From the NCBI RefSeq assembly GCF_014207845.1, contig NZ_JACHLC010000001.1, forward strand, positions 1,860,001 through 1,924,000: a stretch of 64,000 bases of DNA. Reading direction: 5' to 3'. This DNA is from Chryseobacterium shigense. GTDB lineage: Bacteria > Bacteroidota > Bacteroidia > Flavobacteriales > Weeksellaceae. The position numbers and the translations under genes were made by a program. Shown here piece by piece: positions 21,944-43,357 of this stretch. How positions within the stretch are numbered: the first letter of the stretch is position 1; the number at the start of each line of letters is the position of its first letter. The notes beneath the pieces are model-generated. The model was given only the letters and a program-made list of their open reading frames with translations. It made no database searches and was not told the origin of the DNA.

Positions 21944-22927
21944 ATGTCTAACTTTGTAGATTACGTAAAGATCCATTGTAAAAGCGGACACGGAGGTGCT
22001 GGTTCTGCCCACCTTCGCCGTGAAAAATATATTCCTAAAGGAGGACCTGACGGAGGTGACGGAGGCCGTGGCGGCCACGTTATCATGAGAGGGAATGCCC
22101 AGGAATGGACTTTACTTCCGCTTCGATACACACGTCACATAAAAGCAGAACGTGGTGAGAACGGAGCTAAAAACCAGCTGACCGGAGCTGACGGTTCTGA
22201 TATTTATATCGATGTTCCTGTAGGCACTATCGCTAAAAATGAAGAAGGAGAAATTATCGGGGAAATCCTTGAGGACAAGCAGGAAATAGTTTTAATGCAG
22301 GGAGGAAAAGGAGGAAAAGGAAACGAGCATTTCAAATCTTCTACCAATCAGACTCCAAGATATGCACAGCCCGGAATGGATGGCGAAGAAGGCTATGTTG
22401 TTTTCGAGCTTAAAATTTTGGCAGATGTAGGCCTGGTTGGTTTTCCAAATGCAGGAAAATCTACACTTCTTGCTTCTGTTTCCGCCGCAAAACCTAAGAT
22501 CGCCAATTACGCATTTACAACGCTGACTCCCAATCTTGGTATCGTGGATTACAGAAATTATAAATCATTTGTAATGGCTGACATCCCCGGAATTATTGAA
22601 GGAGCTGCCGAAGGAAAAGGTCTAGGACACAGATTTTTAAGACATATTGAAAGAAATTCCATTTTGCTGTTCTTAATTCCGGCTGATTCCGAAAGCCATT
22701 TCCAGGAGTTTAAAATTCTGGAAAATGAATTGAAAGAATACAATCCCGAGCTTCTGGATAAAGATTTCATTGTTTCCGTTTCAAAATCCGATCTTCTGGA
22801 TGATGAACTGAAAAAAGAAATCTCCAAAGAGTTCCCGGAAAACAGAAAGCCGTTATTCTTCTCCGGTGTTACCGGTGAAGGCCTTGTAGAACTGAAAGAT
22901 GCAGTCTGGAAAAAACTCCACGGATAA
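21944..22927 (+). CDS. obg: GTPase Obg/CgtA
   Basis: Essential GTPase acting in 50S ribosome assembly and stress signalling. The 327 aa have the glycine-rich Obg domain ([15 protein letters not shown] loop [20 protein letters not shown], about 14-33; [20 protein letters not shown]), followed by the G domain: G1 [10 protein letters not shown] (about 165-174), [14 protein letters not shown]3 [16 protein letters not shown] and VSKSDLLDD. The C-terminal OCT domain is absent, as is usual in Bacteroidota. The next gene starts 3 nt after the stop. Confidence 0.96.
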
Positions 22928-22930
22928 AGG

Positions 22931-23716
22931 ATGATACACTCATTAAAGAAAATAACAGCACCCGCTGTTATTTTTGTTTCATTTACGCTGCCTGCCCTGG
23001 CTTATGCCCAGGACAGTGATTCTTTCATGGAAACATTCAAGCAGGAAGAGCCCGCTCCCTTACATGATAAAGCATTCTTCAGGTATGAATTTGATACAAG
23101 ATTAAGGTATAAATTCATTCATGACAAGGCTGATCAGGGTGCAAATGAAATCAATGAGATTGTTGAATATTACACCAATGAGACCGATCTCACTTCTCTT
23201 TATTTTAATAACAGCAGAAATGGCGTAATCTATAATTTAAATAAAAACACCAATCCGGTTCTCCCTATTTTGATCAAGGACGAGAATAAAAATATCAAAC
23301 CCGGAAATTTCGATTATTTTAAAGGAGATATTCCTTTGGAATCTGAGATTGCCGATATCAGGAAAAGAAAAAAGGCAAAAACCGATCAGATACTGGAGCT
23401 TGTTGAAAAGAAAGCCGAAAACGACCTGGTTCATTATAAATATAACCTTATCCGCAACGATAAAGGCAGAACAAATGTAGGGGTTATTGAGCTGGATATT
23501 ACCAACAGCGATAAAGGCTTCAATAACAATATCCTTTATAATATGGAACCTTTATTTTTCAAAAACAAGATACTTTTTGACAAAGGCGAAATAAAAAGCT
23601 ATTCTCATTATAATACGGACAAAAAGAGAATAAAGTATTATGAATCAATAGATACAGATCCTGTAATCCTGAGATTATCATTTACTAAAGGCTGCTGCGT
23701 TTCATCCCTGGAATAG
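22931..23716 (+). CDS. Secreted protein of unknown function, GLPGLI-like plan
   Basis: A 261-aa protein with a signal peptide ending ALAYAQ (about residue 27). The mature protein is beta-rich, with FFRYEFDTRLRYKFIHDKAD, LYFNNSRNGVIYNLNKN, and VGVIELDITNSDKG. Small secreted Bacteroidota proteins with a FRYEFDTR-like first strand sometimes belong to the GLPGLI family, but the LPGL motif is not seen, so I leave it unassigned. Its start is 3 nt after obg, which suggests read-through from obg. Confidence 0.65.
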   Translation: MIHSLKKITAPAVIFVSFTLPALAYAQDSDSFMETFKQEEPAPLHDKAFFRYEFDTRLRYKFIHDKADQGANEINEIVEYYTNETDLTSLYFNNSRNGVIYNLNKNTNPVLPILIKDENKNIKPGNFDYFKGDIPLESEIADIRKRKKAKTDQILELVEKKAENDLVHYKYNLIRNDKGRTNVGVIELDITNSDKGFNNNILYNMEPLFFKNKILFDKGEIKSYSHYNTDKKRIKYYESIDTDPVILRLSFTKGCCVSSLE

Positions 23717-36396: not shown

Positions 36397-38163
36397 TTAA
36401 TACATTTTTTCAATAATGTCTGCATATTTTTTAAGAACTACATTTCTTTTCACCTTCAAAGTTGGTGTAATTTCTCCGGTATTGATATCGAATTCGACTG
36501 GCATCAATGTAAACTTTTTCACTTTTTCATAATCTGCCAGGTGAACCTGTAGTTCTTTAATCTTTTCTTTGTATAAGTTAATAATCTTTTCGTTTTCAAC
36601 TGCTGCTTCCCAATTGGTAAACGGAATATTGTTTTTCTTCATAAAGTCCTGAAGAAACTCAAAATTAGGAACAATAAGAGCTGAAACAAACTGTCTTCCC
36701 TCCGCCACAAGCATAATCTGCTGGATAAAATTATTATTGGTCAGAAGATTTTCAATTTGCTGTGGTGCTATATATTTTCCGTTGGATGTTTTCATCAGAT
36801 CTTTGATACGGTCTGTGATAATCAGGTTTCCTTTATCATCAAATTTTCCGGCATCCCCGGTTTTGAACCATCCGTCTTCTGTAAAAACTTTCTGTGTTTC
36901 CTCCGGCCTGTTGTAATAACCTTTCATAATCCCGTTTCCTTTAGCCTGGATCTCATCTCCTTCACCGATACGGATTTCCACTCCCGGTAAAGGTTTACCG
37001 CTGGTTCCATGCTCAAAGTGCGTTAATGGGAAAAGGGTAAGGGTTGCTGTGGTTTCAGTCAGTCCATATCCTACTGTGATATGAATTCCCACCGAGTCAA
37101 AGAATTTTGTGACTTCCGGCGACAGGGATGCTCCACCACAAGGTAAGAACCATAGTCTTCCGCCCATTCTTTCTTTAATTTTACTGAAAACCAATGTTTC
37201 TGCAACAGATTGTTTCAGTTTTAATCCAAAAGGAACCGATTTTTCATTTCTTCTCAGTTCAGCGGTCTGCCATCCTGTTGCCAGTGCCCAGTCAAATATC
37301 TTTTTCTTGAATGATGAACCTTCTTCTGCTTTTTCCAAAACTCCGGCATATACTTTCTGGAAAAATCTCGGTACTGCACAAATCATGGTAGGCTTTACCT
37401 CTTCCAGAGCTTTGGCTATATTTTTAGGATCTTCCAGGAAATACACCCTTGCACCTCCGTATAAGCAAAGCAGGCTCCAGCTTCTTTCAAAAACGTGGGT
37501 AAGCGGAAGAAATGCCAGTGAAAGTTCTTCTTCAAAATTTTTAAACTTAAAAAACTCAAAATGGGAGTCAAAAGCCTTAATAAAATTTCCGTGGGTAAGC
37601 ATTACGCCTTTGGGTGTTCCTGTAGTTCCGGAAGTATAGATCAGGGTAGCTGTATCGTCATATTCTTTTTTACAGATCTCCAGCTTGGGAGAGGATTTTG
37701 CAATAAAGTCTTCAAGGTAAAAGCTGTTAAATTCTTTTTTGATCCAAACGGCTTTTTTGGAAACGATAATGGTCTCCAACTGGTTTTCCTCCTTGTGTAA
37801 AACACTCAGACACGCATCATATTGCTCCTGATTGCCCACAAGCACAACTTTTGCTGAAGAATCATTGATGATATATTCTGCCTGCTCCGCATTATTGGTT
37901 GAATAAACAGGGACAGTAACAGCGCCTACAGCCATTGAAGCCAGGTCGAAGATCATCCATTCAGAGGAATTATCTGCATAAATGGCCACTTTATCATTTT
38001 CCTGAACACCTGCATTTTTCAGTGCATTAGCTGTTTTAAAAACGATCTCACCGAATTTTTTCCAGCTCAGCTCTTTCCATGCTTCTTTCTTTTTAAAACC
38101 TATCGCTGATTTTACAGGATGCTTTTCTACATTTTTAAGGATAATTGCTGCTGCAAGATTCAT
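36397..38163 (-). CDS. Long-chain acyl-CoA synthetase (AMP-forming)
   Basis: A 588-aa adenylate-forming enzyme. P-loop LIYTSGTTGTPKGVMLTHGN (about 173-192), gate motif AVPRFFQKVYAGV, VGYGLTETTATLTLFP (about 371-386), DGWFKTGDAG (about 427-436) and DRIKDLMKTSNGKYIAPQQI (about 444-463) follow the FadD/FACS order. It activates fatty acids with ATP and CoA; chain length is undefined. It overlaps by 4 bp with the upstream epimerase-like gene, so the two are translationally coupled. Confidence 0.93.
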   Translation of the reverse strand: MNLAAAIILKNVEKHPVKSAIGFKKKEAWKELSWKKFGEIVFKTANALKNAGVQENDKVAIYADNSSEWMIFDLASMAVGAVTVPVYSTNNAEQAEYIINDSSAKVVLVGNQEQYDACLSVLHKEENQLETIIVSKKAVWIKKEFNSFYLEDFIAKSSPKLEICKKEYDDTATLIYTSGTTGTPKGVMLTHGNFIKAFDSHFEFFKFKNFEEELSLAFLPLTHVFERSWSLLCLYGGARVYFLEDPKNIAKALEEVKPTMICAVPRFFQKVYAGVLEKAEEGSSFKKKIFDWALATGWQTAELRRNEKSVPFGLKLKQSVAETLVFSKIKERMGGRLWFLPCGGASLSPEVTKFFDSVGIHITVGYGLTETTATLTLFPLTHFEHGTSGKPLPGVEIRIGEGDEIQAKGNGIMKGYYNRPEETQKVFTEDGWFKTGDAGKFDDKGNLIITDRIKDLMKTSNGKYIAPQQIENLLTNNNFIQQIMLVAEGRQFVSALIVPNFEFLQDFMKKNNIPFTNWEAAVENEKIINLYKEKIKELQVHLADYEKVKKFTLMPVEFDINTGEITPTLKVKRNVVLKKYADIIEKMY

Positions 38164-39173
38164 GAATTCAGCTTTTTGTCGTTAATATAATGGTTAAGAT
38201 GAAAATCAATACTGTCTTTCACAGGAATAAACTGATAATCAAGCTTTTCTTTAATTTTTTGATTGGAAATGGTGTTAAGTGCCGATATAGATTCAATATT
38301 TGATTTGGTAATGATTCTCAGCTTCGGAATCAGCCAGCCGAAAAGGATATTGGCCAGTCTTCCCAAATTCAGTTGAAATTTTGTAAGGATTTTTGCCTCT
38401 TTCAGACCAAGTTTTGATCTGATCTGTTTTCCAAGTTCCGCATATCTTTTATTTTCGGAAATAAGGATAAAACGTTCTCCAAAAGCATTTTTTTCCATCA
38501 GTTCAATAGAAATTTCAGCAACATCTCTCACGTCTACATAACTTGTTCCACCGGAAAATGTAAAGCTGTTTTTTTCAAAAGTGGGAAAAATATCTCCGCT
38601 GCTCTGCCCCCAGTTCCCGCTTCCGATAATCATTCCGGGATTTACAATTATTGTATTTAAACCTTCGGCAGAAGCTCTCCAGACTTCCATTTCAGCAAGG
38701 TGTTTGGAAACAGCATAGGCGGAATGTTCTTCTTTGGAGTTAAATTCCGAGTTCTCGTCCAGCTCACCTTTTTCATTAAAAATATCCAGAACGGCAATGG
38801 TACTTACATGAAGAAATTTTTTCACTCCCGAGCCTTCACAGGCAAATAACAGGTTTTCTGTACCTTTTATATTGGTATGGTACAGTTCTTTTTCATCATG
38901 AGGATGAAAGCTTACTTTTGCGGCACAGTGATAAACCTCATCTATACCCTTTAATGCATTCTGCAGAGAATCAAGGTCATCAAAATCTACATCCACCCAT
39001 TCGATTTTATTAAAAAAATCATCAGGAGTCTCTGTATAGAAGCCGTAAGAATGTCTTACATCGTTTAAATTGCTGCCCGGTCTTTTGGAAGCACGCACGT
39101 TTTTCCCTTTTTTAAGAAGTTCCAAAACGATTACCCTTCCCAGAATTCCGGTCGCACCTGTTACAAAAATCAT
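38160..39173 (-). CDS. NAD(P)-dependent epimerase/dehydratase (extended SDR)
   Basis: A 337-aa extended short-chain dehydrogenase: Rossmann loop MIFVTGATGILGRVIVLELL (TGATGILG, about 5-12), YHCAAKVSFHPHDEKELYHT (about 91-110) and the catalytic Tyr-Lys pair in HSAYAVSKHLAEMEVWR (YxxxK). SGGTSYVDVRDVAEI in the middle is typical of the 3-beta-HSD/DFR-like group. The coupling to the acyl-CoA synthetase (4-bp overlap) suggests a lipid- or acyl-linked substrate (inference). The specific reaction is unknown. Confidence 0.85.
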   Translation of the reverse strand: MIFVTGATGILGRVIVLELLKKGKNVRASKRPGSNLNDVRHSYGFYTETPDDFFNKIEWVDVDFDDLDSLQNALKGIDEVYHCAAKVSFHPHDEKELYHTNIKGTENLLFACEGSGVKKFLHVSTIAVLDIFNEKGELDENSEFNSKEEHSAYAVSKHLAEMEVWRASAEGLNTIIVNPGMIIGSGNWGQSSGDIFPTFEKNSFTFSGGTSYVDVRDVAEISIELMEKNAFGERFILISENKRYAELGKQIRSKLGLKEAKILTKFQLNLGRLANILFGWLIPKLRIITKSNIESISALNTISNQKIKEKLDYQFIPVKDSIDFHLNHYINDKKLNS

Positions 39174-39426: not shown

Positions 39427-39466
39427 AAAAGTCACAAAAGTGTTTTTAAACACTTTTGTGACTTTT
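39427..39466 (-). terminator. Terminator of the graspetide operon
   Basis: A 20-bp inverted repeat (39427-39446 with 39447-39466; the effective loop is the central TTTTTAAA) followed on the minus strand by a T run, 23 nt after the mvdD-like stop. It also carries CACAAAAG words shared with 36257-36384. Confidence 0.9.
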
Positions 39467-39488: not shown

Positions 39489-40493
39489 TTAAGCCATAAC
39501 CATATTATTTCTTCTTGGAGCTTTATCGCAGAGAACATCCGCGATGCTTTTGGAGATTAGGTTTCCTTCCGTCAGGTTATCCAGCCAGAAAAATTCTCCT
39601 GCAGCATTGATCTCTATGAAATAATATTCGTCTTCAGGGGAAACAATAATATCTATTGCACCATAATCTACATTATAAATATCTAAAAGTTCCAGAAGTT
39701 TTGCTTCAATATCAGCAGGAAGTTCAGTTCTGACCCATTTAGAGAGTAGATTGACTCCGTCTTTTCTCCAGTCTACTTTGGCATCCTCAGATTGCTGGGA
39801 ATCTATTTCGAAGGCGTAAACATCCTGTCCTACAACAGTAACCCTAAGCTCTTTTTTCTTTTCAATCTTCTTTTGGAACTGCATCGGGCAATATACCAGT
39901 GTATCCAGTTCTTCCAACTTATCTTCGCTCACGACATTGGTGAAAACCACGCTTTCCACCCCGTCTTCATAAATGGCAAAGCCGGTTTGCATTTTAGCGA
40001 CTACATTTTGATGTTTAAGGATAAACTGTCTTGCTTCTTCGGGATTATTTGTTATGCAGGTTTCGGGAATTTTAAGGCCTAATTTAACGGCAAGTTTAAG
40101 CTGTTCTTCCTTACTGTCCAGCCTTCTGTAAACTCCCGGCTTCCCTAATGCATAAGCATCTACAGATTCTATAAACCCGAAAAGTGTATTCCGGATCTCG
40201 CCCATTGCGGCTCCATAGAATTTTTTATCCATCTCTTCTTTTACTCCATTTCCGATGTTGTAAGCTCTTCGGTACCAAACTGCGGCAATATCGTCTACAC
40301 GGTATTTCGTGTCTTTGGTTTCAAGAGTACTTATCCATTCTCCATCCTGATAAATGGTTGACAGTTTATTTTGTATAGGATACAGATCCACATCAAAACG
40401 GATGACTTCGCAGCCATTCTTTTCAATGTATTCCGTTACTTTTTCGATTGAGAAATTATCCTGGGTATAGGTAATAATTAATATTTTATTCAT
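39489..40493 (-). CDS. mvdD: MvdD-type ATP-grasp ligase (omega-ester forming graspetide maturase)
   Basis: A 334-aa ATP-grasp enzyme. It has the MvdD-like N-terminus KILIITYTQDNFSIEKVTEY (about 3-22), VWYRRAYNIG (about 72-81), VVAKMQTGFAIYEDGVESVV (about 164-183) and the metal-binding end YYFIEINAAGEFFWLDNL (about 293-310). In microviridin synthesis MvdD makes two lactones between core Thr/Ser and Asp/Glu; this gene's similarity and position suggest the same role on the precursors at 41526 and 41799. Its ATG overlaps the mvdC-like stop by 4 bp. Whether it accepts the Asp-rich cores here is untested. Confidence 0.9.
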   Translation of the reverse strand: MNKILIITYTQDNFSIEKVTEYIEKNGCEVIRFDVDLYPIQNKLSTIYQDGEWISTLETKDTKYRVDDIAAVWYRRAYNIGNGVKEEMDKKFYGAAMGEIRNTLFGFIESVDAYALGKPGVYRRLDSKEEQLKLAVKLGLKIPETCITNNPEEARQFILKHQNVVAKMQTGFAIYEDGVESVVFTNVVSEDKLEELDTLVYCPMQFQKKIEKKKELRVTVVGQDVYAFEIDSQQSEDAKVDWRKDGVNLLSKWVRTELPADIEAKLLELLDIYNVDYGAIDIIVSPEDEYYFIEINAAGEFFWLDNLTEGNLISKSIADVLCDKAPRRNNMVMA

Positions 40494-41443
40494 GGATTAT
40501 TGATTCTTTTTATAAGGTTATCGGCAATTCTTTCTGCGATGGGAAAACCAAGCTCTTTCTGAAGCATTCCCCATTCTCCCTGAGGATTTACTTCAAGGAA
40601 ATAATATTCCCCATTCTTTCCTTTAATCATGTCTATAGCTCCGATGTAAAGTCCCATTTTTTTCATCATGTAAGAAAGCCCGGTTTTTACATTTTCCGGA
40701 AGTTCATAGGCTGTCCAGACGTAATCTCCCTGCGCCAGTCTCCAGTCTGCATTTTCGCTGTTATTGATCTTTCCTGCAAAAAACTCCCCGGCTATATAGA
40801 CAATTCTTAATTCATATTCTTTGTCAATATAGGGTTGAAAGATCATCGGACAGTAAGCAATATCTGAAATATGTTCAAGGGTATCTTCTTCAATGATCAT
40901 GGTTGAGATAAGATTTTCCCCGTTCATGGTCTTTGCGGTAAGGCTGTGAAGTTTTGCCACTGCTTTTCCATCGCAAAATTCATAAAAAAAGGCCTTAATC
41001 TTCTCAGCATCATTTGAAAAAATGGTTTTTGGAATGGTTAAATTACTTTCTTTGGCCAGTTTCAGCTGAAGCATTTTATTACCATCGATCTTTCTTTCGT
41101 TTTCATAAGGATTGATCCAGGGAACATCTTCTAAAATGGTGATCAGGTTATACCGGAGGTTTCCGTACCCGCTCAGGAATACTTTTTTATACTCTTCATC
41201 CAGTTCTTCAGGAGTACTTATTCCCCATGCCTTTCTGTGCCATACTCCTTTAATATCTTTAGAATGAATGGTATTTCCGAATTCATCTGTAAGTTCAAAA
41301 GAATCTTCACTGACACTGATTTTCTGAAAATGATTTATCCGGTCAGAATTCAGTCTGAAGTACTGAATATTTTTAGAAGCCAGATAGTCAAAAAACAGAT
41401 CGATATTATAAAAATCGTTTGAGTGGGTAATGCAGAGGATCAT
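40490..41443 (-). CDS. mvdC: MvdC-type ATP-grasp ligase (omega-amide forming graspetide maturase)
   Basis: A 317-aa ATP-grasp enzyme, paralogous to the downstream gene. It begins MILCITHSNDFYNIDLFFDY, then GVWHRKAWGISTPEEL (about 66-81), MIFQPYIDKEYELRIVYI (about 199-216), NADWRLAQGDYVW and the terminal YYFLEVNPQGEWGML (about 284-298). In characterised microviridin clusters MvdC forms the lactam between the core Lys and a Glu after MvdD has acted. Its start lies 16 nt after a terminator-like hairpin, so expression should be lower than that of the precursors. Confidence 0.9.
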   Translation of the reverse strand: MILCITHSNDFYNIDLFFDYLASKNIQYFRLNSDRINHFQKISVSEDSFELTDEFGNTIHSKDIKGVWHRKAWGISTPEELDEEYKKVFLSGYGNLRYNLITILEDVPWINPYENERKIDGNKMLQLKLAKESNLTIPKTIFSNDAEKIKAFFYEFCDGKAVAKLHSLTAKTMNGENLISTMIIEEDTLEHISDIAYCPMIFQPYIDKEYELRIVYIAGEFFAGKINNSENADWRLAQGDYVWTAYELPENVKTGLSYMMKKMGLYIGAIDMIKGKNGEYYFLEVNPQGEWGMLQKELGFPIAERIADNLIKRINNP

Positions 41444-41458
41444 TTGCCGGTTTTTATT

Positions 41459-41489
41459 AAAAAAGGAAACTTAATGGTAAGTTTCCTTT
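41459..41489 (-). terminator. Terminator-like hairpin between precursor and ligase genes
   Basis: A perfect 12-bp stem (41462-41473 with 41478-41489), ATGG loop, followed on the minus strand by six T, 16 nt before the mvdC-like ATG and 36 nt after the second precursor's stop. It probably stops most transcripts, leaving precursor mRNA in excess. Confidence 0.85.
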
Positions 41490-41525
41490 GGTATGATTGT
41501 ATTAATACGATTAATAAGTCACGTC

Positions 41526-41756
41526 TTAATCCAGTTGAACAACAGGAGCATCGTCATCTCCGTCAGATGGATATTTCATTGTGTGCATCATGTCGTCTTT
41601 AGGGGAAGTCACCACATCAATAGACGGCTTGGTGATTGAATCCTGCAAAGCATTGGTAATGACACCTGTTCCTCCTTTAACAGTTTCAGGATCTTTAAGC
41701 TGCTTTTCCAGGAATGATGCAAAAAACGGCTTCTTTTTTGAATTTTTGTCTTTCAT
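41526..41756 (-). CDS. Microviridin-type graspetide precursor peptide 1
   Basis: A 76-aa precursor. The leader has KKPFFASFLEKQ (about 8-19), the helix recognised by graspetide ligases, then KDPETVKGG (Gly28-Gly29). The core region is TMKYPSDGDDDAPVVQLD (59-76). TxKYPSD is the conserved microviridin core: Thr59 and Ser64 are candidate ester donors, Lys61 the amide donor, and Asp65, Asp67 and Asp68 candidate acceptors. The usual aromatic after PSD is Gly, and both later acceptors are Asp. Met60 is at the position that sets protease specificity in microviridins. Start: first ATG, with a Lys-rich N-terminus like peptide 2. Confidence 0.9.
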   Translation of the reverse strand: MKDKNSKKKPFFASFLEKQLKDPETVKGGTGVITNALQDSITKPSIDVVTSPKDDMMHTMKYPSDGDDDAPVVQLD

Positions 41757-41798
41757 AATAATTTAGTTTTGGTTGATGATTTTCTTTATAGTTCTGAC

Positions 41799-42044
41799 TT
41801 ACAAAATATCTATCTCTCCGGACTCATCACTGTCGGACGGGTACTTCATTGTTACCACCTGGTCTTTTAACGGTGTGGTAGCATTATCAAGAAACGGTGA
41901 TGTGGTAACAACATCTCTTGCCGGTACGGTAAGAACATCTGTGGTAGGTGTAGTAACTGTACCTCCCTGAATTTTCTCAGGATCATTGATCTGTTTTTCT
42001 AAAAACGAAGCAAAGAACGGTTTTTTTGAGTTTTTCTTTTCCAT
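41799..42044 (-). CDS. Microviridin-type graspetide precursor peptide 2
   Basis: An 81-aa precursor with leader KKPFFASFLEKQ (7-18), DPEKIQGG (Gly27-Gly28) and core TMKYPSDSDESGEIDIL (65-81). Candidate ring residues are Thr65, Lys67, Ser70, Asp71, Asp73 and Glu74; here the last acceptor is Glu as in microviridins, but the first is Asp. Between leader and core the motif DVxT occurs twice (DVLTVP 36-41, DVVTTSP 44-50), and DVVTSP also occurs in peptide 1. It is the first gene of the operon; a weak -7 element lies about 30 nt upstream. Confidence 0.9.
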   Translation of the reverse strand: MEKKNSKKPFFASFLEKQINDPEKIQGGTVTTPTTDVLTVPARDVVTTSPFLDNATTPLKDQVVTMKYPSDSDESGEIDIL

Positions 42045-42160: not shown

Positions 42161-42946
42161 TTAATTCAAACCTAAAAAATCCTTAACAACTATTGCAAAA
42201 TCAACCGGATTTTCTGCCTGCACCCAATGTCCGGCATTTTTTACCGTAACAATCTTAGCTTTTGGAAACTGCTGCTTGATTCCATATTCATCCTGCGGGA
42301 GGATATAATTTGATTTTTCACCTGCGATAAACAGGGAATCACCTTCGAAAACTCCAAATTTCACTGCATTGGAAACAAATTCGTTATATTTTTCAGATAA
42401 AGTTTTAAGGTTGAATCTCCAGTTCAGCTTTTTATTATCATCCCAATACAGGTTTTTTGCTAAAAACTGGATAGTAGATTTTTCAGGAATATACTGACTT
42501 AATATAGCCTCAACATCTCCTCTTGAACTAACCGTATTGAAGTCTACCGTTTCAAGGGCTTTGATAATTCCCTGATGATGCGGAGGATAAGCTTTTGGAG
42601 AAATATCTACCACAATAAGCTTTTCAACTCTTTCAGGGTATTTCAGGGCGAACTGCATGACTGCTTTTCCACCCAGGGAATGTCCCAGAACATGGGCTTT
42701 CTGAATACCGTAATGATCCATATAACGGGCAATATCATCGGCCAGGTCATCATGGGTCATGCTTTCGGAATGAAAGCTTCTGCCGTGATTTCTCAAGTCT
42801 ATTAAATGAACCGGAAGGTATTCGCCCAGGTCTTTTCCAAAGGTTCCCCAGTTGTCAAGCATTCCAAAAAGTCCGTGGAATACAAGAAGCGGCGTAACGG
42901 TAAGGTTTTCGCCGAATATTTTTGAATTAAGTATGTTATTATCCAT
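42161..42946 (-). CDS. Alpha/beta hydrolase, YbfF-like esterase
   Basis: A 261-aa hydrolase. It shows LLVFHGLFGMLDNWGTFGK (HGLFG, about 21-39), HLIDLRNHGRSFHSESM (about 48-64), nucleophile VLGHSLGGKAVM (Ser about 93), VVDISPKAYPPHH and the catalytic His in NAGHWVQAENPV. This order, including DLRNHGRS, is that of the YbfF/ABHD11 esterase group. The physiological substrate is unknown. It is 6 nt from the upstream hypothetical gene; its 3' end is 116 nt from the graspetide operon start. Confidence 0.88.
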   Translation of the reverse strand: MDNNILNSKIFGENLTVTPLLVFHGLFGMLDNWGTFGKDLGEYLPVHLIDLRNHGRSFHSESMTHDDLADDIARYMDHYGIQKAHVLGHSLGGKAVMQFALKYPERVEKLIVVDISPKAYPPHHQGIIKALETVDFNTVSSRGDVEAILSQYIPEKSTIQFLAKNLYWDDNKKLNWRFNLKTLSEKYNEFVSNAVKFGVFEGDSLFIAGEKSNYILPQDEYGIKQQFPKAKIVTVKNAGHWVQAENPVDFAIVVKDFLGLN

Positions 42947-42952
42947 AATGTA

Positions 42953-43357
42953 TCAGTCTAAAAATGATGAAAAAAATTCTCCGATTCCCTGAAAAATATC
43001 CCCCAGATCCAGCCAGGACAAATCAATTTCCGTATCGGAAAGTTCTGGAAAAACAAAATTAAGCCCATCCGAAGAAATGCCTTCCAGCATAGTTTGCTTC
43101 ATTTCAGTATAATCACAGATTTCTCCTGAAGCCTGATGATAGGAATCAAAATCCTCATGTGAAGAAAAAACAGACATTCCCCAACAGGAATAATCGGCTC
43201 CGTTTGTTCCATTGGCCCATGAAGTTTTCTGATTGGCCTTTTTTATTTCTTCAGGTTTATAAAATTCTTTTTTGCCGTAATCTCCTACTAAAATGCTTCC
43301 TAAATCTTTAATATATTTCTTCCTGTCTTCAGGTAAGGGTGTACAAAATTCGCTCAT
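42953..43357 (-). CDS. Hypothetical acidic protein
   Basis: A 134-aa acidic protein without signal or membrane segment. Segments include MSEFCTPLPEDRKKYIKDLG, KTSWANGTNGADYSCWGMSV (about 44-63) and a C-terminal stretch rich in Asp, Leu and Phe (DLSWLDLGDIFQGIGEFF). I do not recognise the family. Its start lies 13 nt after the pdxJ stop and its stop 6 nt before the esterase gene, so pdxJ, this gene and the esterase are probably one operon. Confidence 0.6.
   Translation of the reverse strand: MSEFCTPLPEDRKKYIKDLGSILVGDYGKKEFYKPEEIKKANQKTSWANGTNGADYSCWGMSVFSSHEDFDSYHQASGEICDYTEMKQTMLEGISSDGLNFVFPELSDTEIDLSWLDLGDIFQGIGEFFSSFLD

Follow-up and report, generated by a model that had tools for sequence, protein, structure and literature searches.

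A probable chryseoviridin locus with two multicore precursors and a conserved intergenic hairpin in Chryseobacterium shigense

Introduction

Which peptide is made by a compact set of two small open reading frames (ORFs) and two overlapping ATP-grasp ligase genes in Chryseobacterium shigense, and how many rings would it carry? The four genes lie between positions 39489 and 42044 of a 64,000-nt stretch of contig NZ_JACHLC010000001.1, referred to here as the window; all coordinates are positions in it. An initial annotation, made from the letters of the window, had described them as a microviridin-class graspetide operon with a core different from known types, had expected a new protease inhibitor, and had left open the place of the operon among the graspetides of Chryseobacterium. 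We assign the operon, with a probability of roughly 0.9, to the chryseoviridin (cdn) pathway, a multicore pathway of the microviridin class (group 1 graspetides) with "class III" precursors, which settles that placement. The grounds observed here are the gene identities, the synteny, the spacing of repeated units in the precursors, the coupling of lactam donor and acceptor, and the conservation of a hairpin between precursor and ligase genes.

Chryseoviridin is reportedly described as multicore in a 2021 paper on CdnC in the Journal of the American Chemical Society, going by its title. Loci with CdnB, CdnC and the same hydrolase and epimerase flanks have been published for Chryseobacterium, and the conserved precursor motif TxxxxDxxxTxKxPSDxD[DE] was given there from a survey of 47 selected species (PMC8939145). 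Class III precursors are described as mostly from Bacteroidetes, carrying Gly-Gly (GG) and often accompanied by C39 transporters (PMC13039773).

Gene identities

The four ORFs were confirmed where they had been placed, on the minus strand, and the microviridin-class assignment was supported by precursor and ligase profiles as well as by solved structures. Precursor P1 (81 residues; 42044..41799) and precursor P2 (76 residues; 41756..41526) score above the cut-offs of both NCBIfam microvirid_RiPP (NF033738; 69.2 and 73 bits, cut-off 26 bits) and Pfam Inhibitor_I10 (PF12559; 37.9 and 35.8 bits, cut-off 21 bits) in profile scans. The leader motif PFFASFL, as the microviridin class requires (PFFAxFL), was found in both, and a profile search of the whole genome (4.15 Mb, 15 contigs) gave P1 and P2 as the sole precursor matches.

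The two ligase genes share 4 bp (40490-40493). The first (41443..40490, minus strand) encodes a 317-residue MvdC/CdnB-like enzyme, predicted to form the lactam from Lys to Glu/Asp, which covers profile TIGR04185 end to end (1 to 318 of 318) and has 7m4s, AMdnB, as its best solved-structure match (E 1.7e-53). The second (40493..39489, minus strand) encodes a 334-residue MvdD/CdnC-like enzyme, the predicted omega-ester former, which exceeds the TIGR04184 cut-off (482.6 versus 475 bits); its closest solved structure is CdnC (PDB 7mgv; E 1.5e-186), with residues 1-333 aligned without a gap. The MvdD profile gave four matches genome-wide, two of which are this ligase pair. A grasp-with-SPASM system was rejected, the ligases scoring 114.9 and 131 bits with TIGR04192 against a cut-off of 230; a SPASM radical enzyme was not found among the genes scanned around the locus.

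Precursor design

The leader of P1, with PFFASFLEKQ and GG, is followed by four T-x4-D units (TTPTTD, TVPARD, TSPFLD and TTPLKD) and the tail TMKYPSDSDE; P2 has the PFFASFL leader, GG, three such units (TNALQD, TKPSID and TSPKDD) and the tail TMKYPSDGDD. These repeated units upstream of TMKYPSD, and with them the multicore design, had been overlooked in the initial annotation. GG, T-x4-D repeats and a microviridin-like sequence confined to the C terminus are the features of class III (chryseoviridin-type) precursors; with a single TxKxPSD each, P1 and P2 fall outside class II microviridins. Each T-x4-D unit is a predicted ester ring.

For comparison, related loci were collected by searching GTDB contigs with the MvdD-like protein; the best 80 of 87 stretches were taken and the window was added, giving 81. 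Precursors with PFFA, 190 in number, were found in 80 of the 81 loci (window counted): one in 16 loci, two in 32, three in 20, four in 10 and five in 2. A 59-residue ORF without PFFA (L018) was excluded from this count. All 179 distinct precursors have GG and [TS]x[KR]xPSDxD, and the position that follows is E in 92, D in 82, A in 4 and S in 1. The two tails of the window are frequent among them, TMKYPSDGDD occurring in 48 and TMKYPSDSDE in 19 of the 179, and both P1 and P2 fit the published chryseoviridin motif TxxxxDxxxTxKxPSDxD[DE] (PMC8939145). A new core type was therefore ruled out, and the claim that the core differs from known types was not borne out. What stands of the claimed novelty is that P1 and P2 are sequence variants of a type already described. 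The best protein-database match of P1 is 94% identical; as that database is clustered at 90%, one of its clusters may contain a sequence identical to P1.

The operon had been read as that of a plain single-core microviridin, whose three rings would all lie in the C-terminal TxKxPSDxD[DE], with a linker between GG and the tail. The tail is indeed the most constrained of the variable-sequence parts of the core, its ratio of non-synonymous to synonymous substitution rates (dN/dS) being 0.01 to 0.03 in three orthologue groups of the closest relatives. The spacing upstream of the tail speaks against this reading: between GG and tail, Thr/Ser was found five positions before Asp 603 times, compared with a mean of 156 in shuffled sequences. 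Four-position spacing was also raised (301 versus 162 in shuffles), in part, by inspection, because Thr doublets start many units. Across the loci 587 T-x4-D units were counted, with 240 distinct interiors and Pro at the second interior place in 382. The closing Thr and Asp are near-fixed, with dN/dS of 0 to 0.01 in the same three groups, and the residues between them change (interiors 0.16 to 0.26; leaders 0.04 to 0.06). For the P1 orthologues the values are 0.06 in the leader, 0 at the ring closers, 0.26 in the ring interiors, 0.16 in the linkers and 0.01 in the tail. Chryseoviridin is moreover listed among graspetides with repeating macrocyclic units (PMC12291112). Taken with these observations, a single-core product appears very improbable, and the multicore, chryseoviridin-type design is preferred.

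The dN/dS values were obtained from equal-length sequences (14 of 17, 9 of 18 and 10 of 17 in the three groups), and since synonymous rates reach 2.7 in some short regions the ratios are rough. Diversifying selection in the ring interiors was looked for and not found, values of 0.16 to 0.26 being relaxed but well below 1. In the sequences compared, the predicted ring closers and the tail are fixed; interiors and linkers vary, with no hint of positive selection.

Distribution of the locus

An alpha/beta hydrolase gene (42946..42161) flanks the set on the precursor side and an epimerase gene (39173..38160) on the ligase side, both identified by profile scans, and this placement is the published location of chryseoviridin loci (PMC8939145). 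The initial annotation had set beforehand that lack of conservation as a set in related genomes would count against it; the gene set is kept together there. The 80 related loci are all titled Chryseobacterium except for one Weeksellaceae metagenome-assembled genome, and include the cdn locus of C. gregarium DSM 19109. The hydrolase is present in 80 of the 81 loci; the exception, L023, starts within the ligase gene. For the epimerase the count on the fetched stretches is 75 of 81, with a distance to the ligase of over 1 kb in 11 of the 75.

Among 173 genomes of the genus, the MvdD profile matched in 156, of which 108 are over the cut-off and 142 have E < 1e-100 (read from the table); precursors were found in 144. 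In a sample of 296 genomes of the family, 125 hold precursors, all of them in the genus of the window (1 of 33 genera), and none was found in the 32 other genera. The locus is thus already known across the genus, and the window adds one more member.

Predicted lactam donor and acceptor

The predicted lactam would join the tail Lys to the acid following PSDxD. A set of 274 distinct precursors was assembled from the 179 of the loci and 114 from the protein database, 19 being shared. An acid is at the partner place in all 266 precursors with tail Lys and in none of the 8 with tail Arg. This joint loss of Lys and acid is what a Lys to Glu/Asp ring predicts, and on comparative grounds it supports the lactam.

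Tails such as TMRYPSDSDA, in which Lys and the acidic partner are both gone, end the first precursors of five loci (L038, L054, L060, L065 and L073); for these a bicyclic tail without lactam is predicted. The tail of marinostatin is almost identical to that of P1, with Arg for Lys; it has no lactam donor and is hence bicyclic.

Proposed pathway

The steps proposed here (ring closure, the roles of the two ligases, leader removal, export, target and attenuation) would follow those of characterised relatives. Both ligases would bind P1 and P2 through the shared PFFASFL leader. The CdnC/MvdD-like ligase would form a Thr-to-Asp omega-ester on each T-x4-D unit, four in P1 and three in P2, and also two esters, Thr-Asp and Ser-Asp, within the tail T-M-K-Y-P-S-D-x-D-[E/D]. 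The CdnB/MvdC-like ligase would close the lactam from the tail Lys to Glu/Asp. This division matches the description of MvdD as the lactone-forming and MvdC as the lactam-forming enzyme (PMC13039773). Cleavage behind GG, perhaps by a C39 transporter whose gene lies outside the locus, would then remove the leader; once exported, the chain of small rings may act as a serine protease inhibitor. The conserved hairpin between precursors and ligases would allow more precursor than ligase to be made.

Several observations weigh against this assignment or parts of it. The MvdC-like ligase scores below the TIGR04185 cut-off (395.6 versus 425 bits). The linkers are as variable as the ring interiors (dN/dS 0.10 to 0.37 versus 0.16 to 0.26), so that variability by itself is no ring marker; the fixed closers are. 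The 8 Arg cores are close relatives, which means that the joint loss may reflect one or two events and that Fisher's P overstates it. The acceptor residues of P2 are Asp-Asp, and the microviridin lactam is described with Glu (PMC13039773); at the acceptor place of the 179 precursors of the genus, D is about as common as E (82 versus 92). A transporter, a peptidase and an N-acetyltransferase were not found among the neighbouring genes scanned. With no C39 transporter at the locus and four C39 genes elsewhere in the genome, the assignment of the exporter is a guess; such a transporter is frequent but not obligatory in class III.

The closest characterised counterpart is the cdn locus of C. gregarium DSM 19109 (L074), the source of the CdnC structure 7mgv. 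Gene order, flanks, leader type, tail motif and T-x4-D units are alike, the hairpin is present too, and the MvdD-like ligase is 80% identical to that of the window (tblastn). The C. gregarium locus differs in having four precursors rather than two; the precursors of the window are 54 to 76% identical to them over aligned residues. The cyanobacterial microviridins (mvd/mdn, class I) share the PFFAxFL leader, the TxKxPSD tail and the pair of MvdC and MvdD (PMC7823629). Class I is described as single-core and mostly lacking GG, with acetylation as an option, carried out by an enzyme encoded in the cluster itself (PMC13039773), whereas the window has additional T-x4-D units and GG, and the scan of neighbouring genes turned up no acetyltransferase. 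Several ring units on one leader are also borne by AMdnA of Anabaena PCC 7120 (class II, three microviridin-like cores), but there each repeat is described as a core in which up to two lactones are formed (PMC5934393); in the window the repeats are predicted single-ring units and only the tail is microviridin-like.

Precursor number

A tree built from both ligases puts the window in a set of 17 loci, the other 16 of which have three or four precursors and the window two. The next locus outside this set (L064) has three, and the sister set beyond (26 loci) one or two, so that the count is fluid in the genus. The tree was a quick one; forks inside the set of 17 are open, and the root was not inferred.

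P1 is nearest to the first precursors of the loci in this set (up to 91% identical) and P2 to the last, ligase-adjacent ones (up to 88%); P2 and the fourth precursor of C. gregarium agree at 55 of 72 aligned positions. The 3' half of the P1-P2 intergenic stretch has on average 19.4 of 21 matches to the stretch before the last precursor of the 16 relatives and 13.9 to that after the first; for its 5' half, the values are 13.8 of 21 to the relatives' first intergenic stretch and 14.9 to the last. On these comparisons the window has probably lost a middle precursor cassette, which is the simplest reading.

The low count could also be taken to mean that the locus is decaying in this strain, with one precursor lost and the rest inactive. 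Both precursors and both ligases are of full length with their motifs intact, the orthologue groups are under purifying selection, and a count of one or two is frequent among loci of the genus (48 of 80), all of which makes decay the least probable of the readings considered here; the chryseoviridin locus of the window is better taken as intact, with one cassette fewer. At another locus (L049), a 342-nt intergenic stretch between the listed precursor and the ligase holds a further precursor-like stretch, apparently a broken copy.

The hairpin between precursors and ligases

The initial annotation had placed terminators on either side of the ligase pair, and hairpins were found at both places. 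The upstream one, on the minus strand between P2 and the MvdC-like gene, has a 12-bp stem (41489-41462) with arms AAAGGAAACTTA and TAAGTTTCCTTT and the loop CCAT, followed by T's to 41459; 15 bases separate the last T from the start codon of the MvdC-like gene. It was absent from the list of the terminator scanner. The downstream one (39466..39427, minus strand; terminator scan) has 18 pairs and a T run. A terminator-like hairpin after the ligases satisfied the criteria applied in 36 of the 81 loci only, with differing sequences, and no sequence is conserved there.

The upstream hairpin is kept in all 80 loci that hold both flanks, the window included, and its exact 9+9 core in 74 of these. 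Five of the 12 pairs are invariant, 98.4% of cells pair, and two outer (not outermost) pairs change on both sides. The loop is 3 to 7 bases long across the loci, and loop and flanks drift. Evidence from covariation is mixed. Cells with a change on both sides number 25 versus 8.6 and the score is 0.137 versus 0.094, both beating all 500 shuffles; the number of pairs with such a change is not above that in shuffles (2 versus 1.8), and the score stays close to its original value when the partner is shifted by +1 or +2 (0.125 and 0.132).

In the genome of the window the exact core occurs at one place, by which a common genome terminator was ruled out. It was found in 131 of the 173 genomes of the genus; all 131 belong to the 144 that have precursors, and the 29 that lack them do not show it. 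For nine of these 29 the precursor-less status was deduced from absence among the positives, and the place was not checked for every core match. In two genomes the core lies on contigs other than those of the listed precursors (G093, C8:131790-131815; G062, C1:466145-466166), the latter having two matches. Against its specificity, 6 of 147 genomes of the family outside the genus, in which no precursors were found, show the core once each; a reversed control pattern occurs in 1 of the 296 family genomes. A known RNA family was also rejected, the one Rfam match of the region being weak (24.8 bits versus a gathering score of 48) and coinciding with the downstream hairpin on the opposite strand. 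A coding sequence was ruled out by inspection from the variable loop length, which makes a DNA operator less likely as well.

By analogy, the hairpin is probably an attenuator, or the 3' end of the precursor transcript, that sets the ratio of precursor to ligase. The mcc operon of E. coli offers a precedent, with a terminator hairpin separating mccA, which encodes the precursor, from the enzyme gene mccB (PMC6495379), but the peptide class is unrelated and termination there depends on ribosome binding to mccA (PMC6495379). The hairpin could instead be a full terminator that splits the region into two transcription units, the ligases having a promoter of their own. The T's that follow it fit this, as do the intergenic stretches, 79 of 80 of which are 69 to 95 nt long, with whole-stretch folding energies of -11.8 to -28.9 kcal/mol. 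With only 15 bases before the ligase start codon, such a promoter would have to sit at or before the hairpin, and the letters of the arms are kept beyond what pairing needs; a full terminator is thus regarded as unlikely, and attenuation is preferred. A promoter scan gave 12 found versus 11.8 expected.

Tentatively, and with a rather low probability, the hairpin might be a sequence-specific regulatory element of the chryseoviridin pathway rather than a plain attenuator. Its arms are kept nearly letter for letter although pairing would allow exchange, which leaves room for sequence recognition, and the core goes with the pathway, being absent from the precursor-less genomes of the genus. If so, it could be bound by a protein, a small RNA or a processing enzyme and would tune the supply of ligase. 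A word search of the main text of PMC8939145, which described these loci, gave no mention of the hairpin.

Neighbouring genes and other ATP-grasp loci

A 134-residue ORF on the minus strand (42953-43357) has a weak match to DUF6559 below the cut-off; among the 80 related loci a counterpart was detected in L014, L022 and L070 only, which suggests a gained or often lost neighbour.

Elsewhere in the same genome, a related ATP-grasp ligase lies on contig C1 at about 954761-955723 (L003; 1230-1415 and 1495-2463 of that stretch). It is preceded by a 61-residue ORF whose start resembles a GG leader and whose tail is poly-Ser / Ser-Asp, and the profile match contains a TGA; the locus looks like another graspetide system. 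A further ligase matched by the MvdD profile lies on C1 at about 22375-23271 (L004), in a stretch that also holds a 360-residue ORF, of the same length as one in L003, and an 82-residue ORF with GG.

Conclusions

The window contributes two precursor sequences to a family that is already known throughout the genus and whose members are probably ringed protease inhibitors. The multicore design of the two predicts at most seven water losses in P1 and six in P2, by which the monoisotopic mass of the core after GG would fall from 5692.84 to 5566.77 Da and from 5059.40 to 4951.34 Da, respectively. What is distinctive in the window is the presence of two precursors, compared with three or four in the nearest relatives, and an unusually well conserved hairpin. 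This near-invariant hairpin lends itself to direct tests; other systems, mcc among them, are known to have a terminator between the genes for precursor and enzyme. Across the genus the precursors follow a code of fixed ring closers, varying four-residue interiors, and a lactam donor and acceptor that are lost together, which may be useful for library design.

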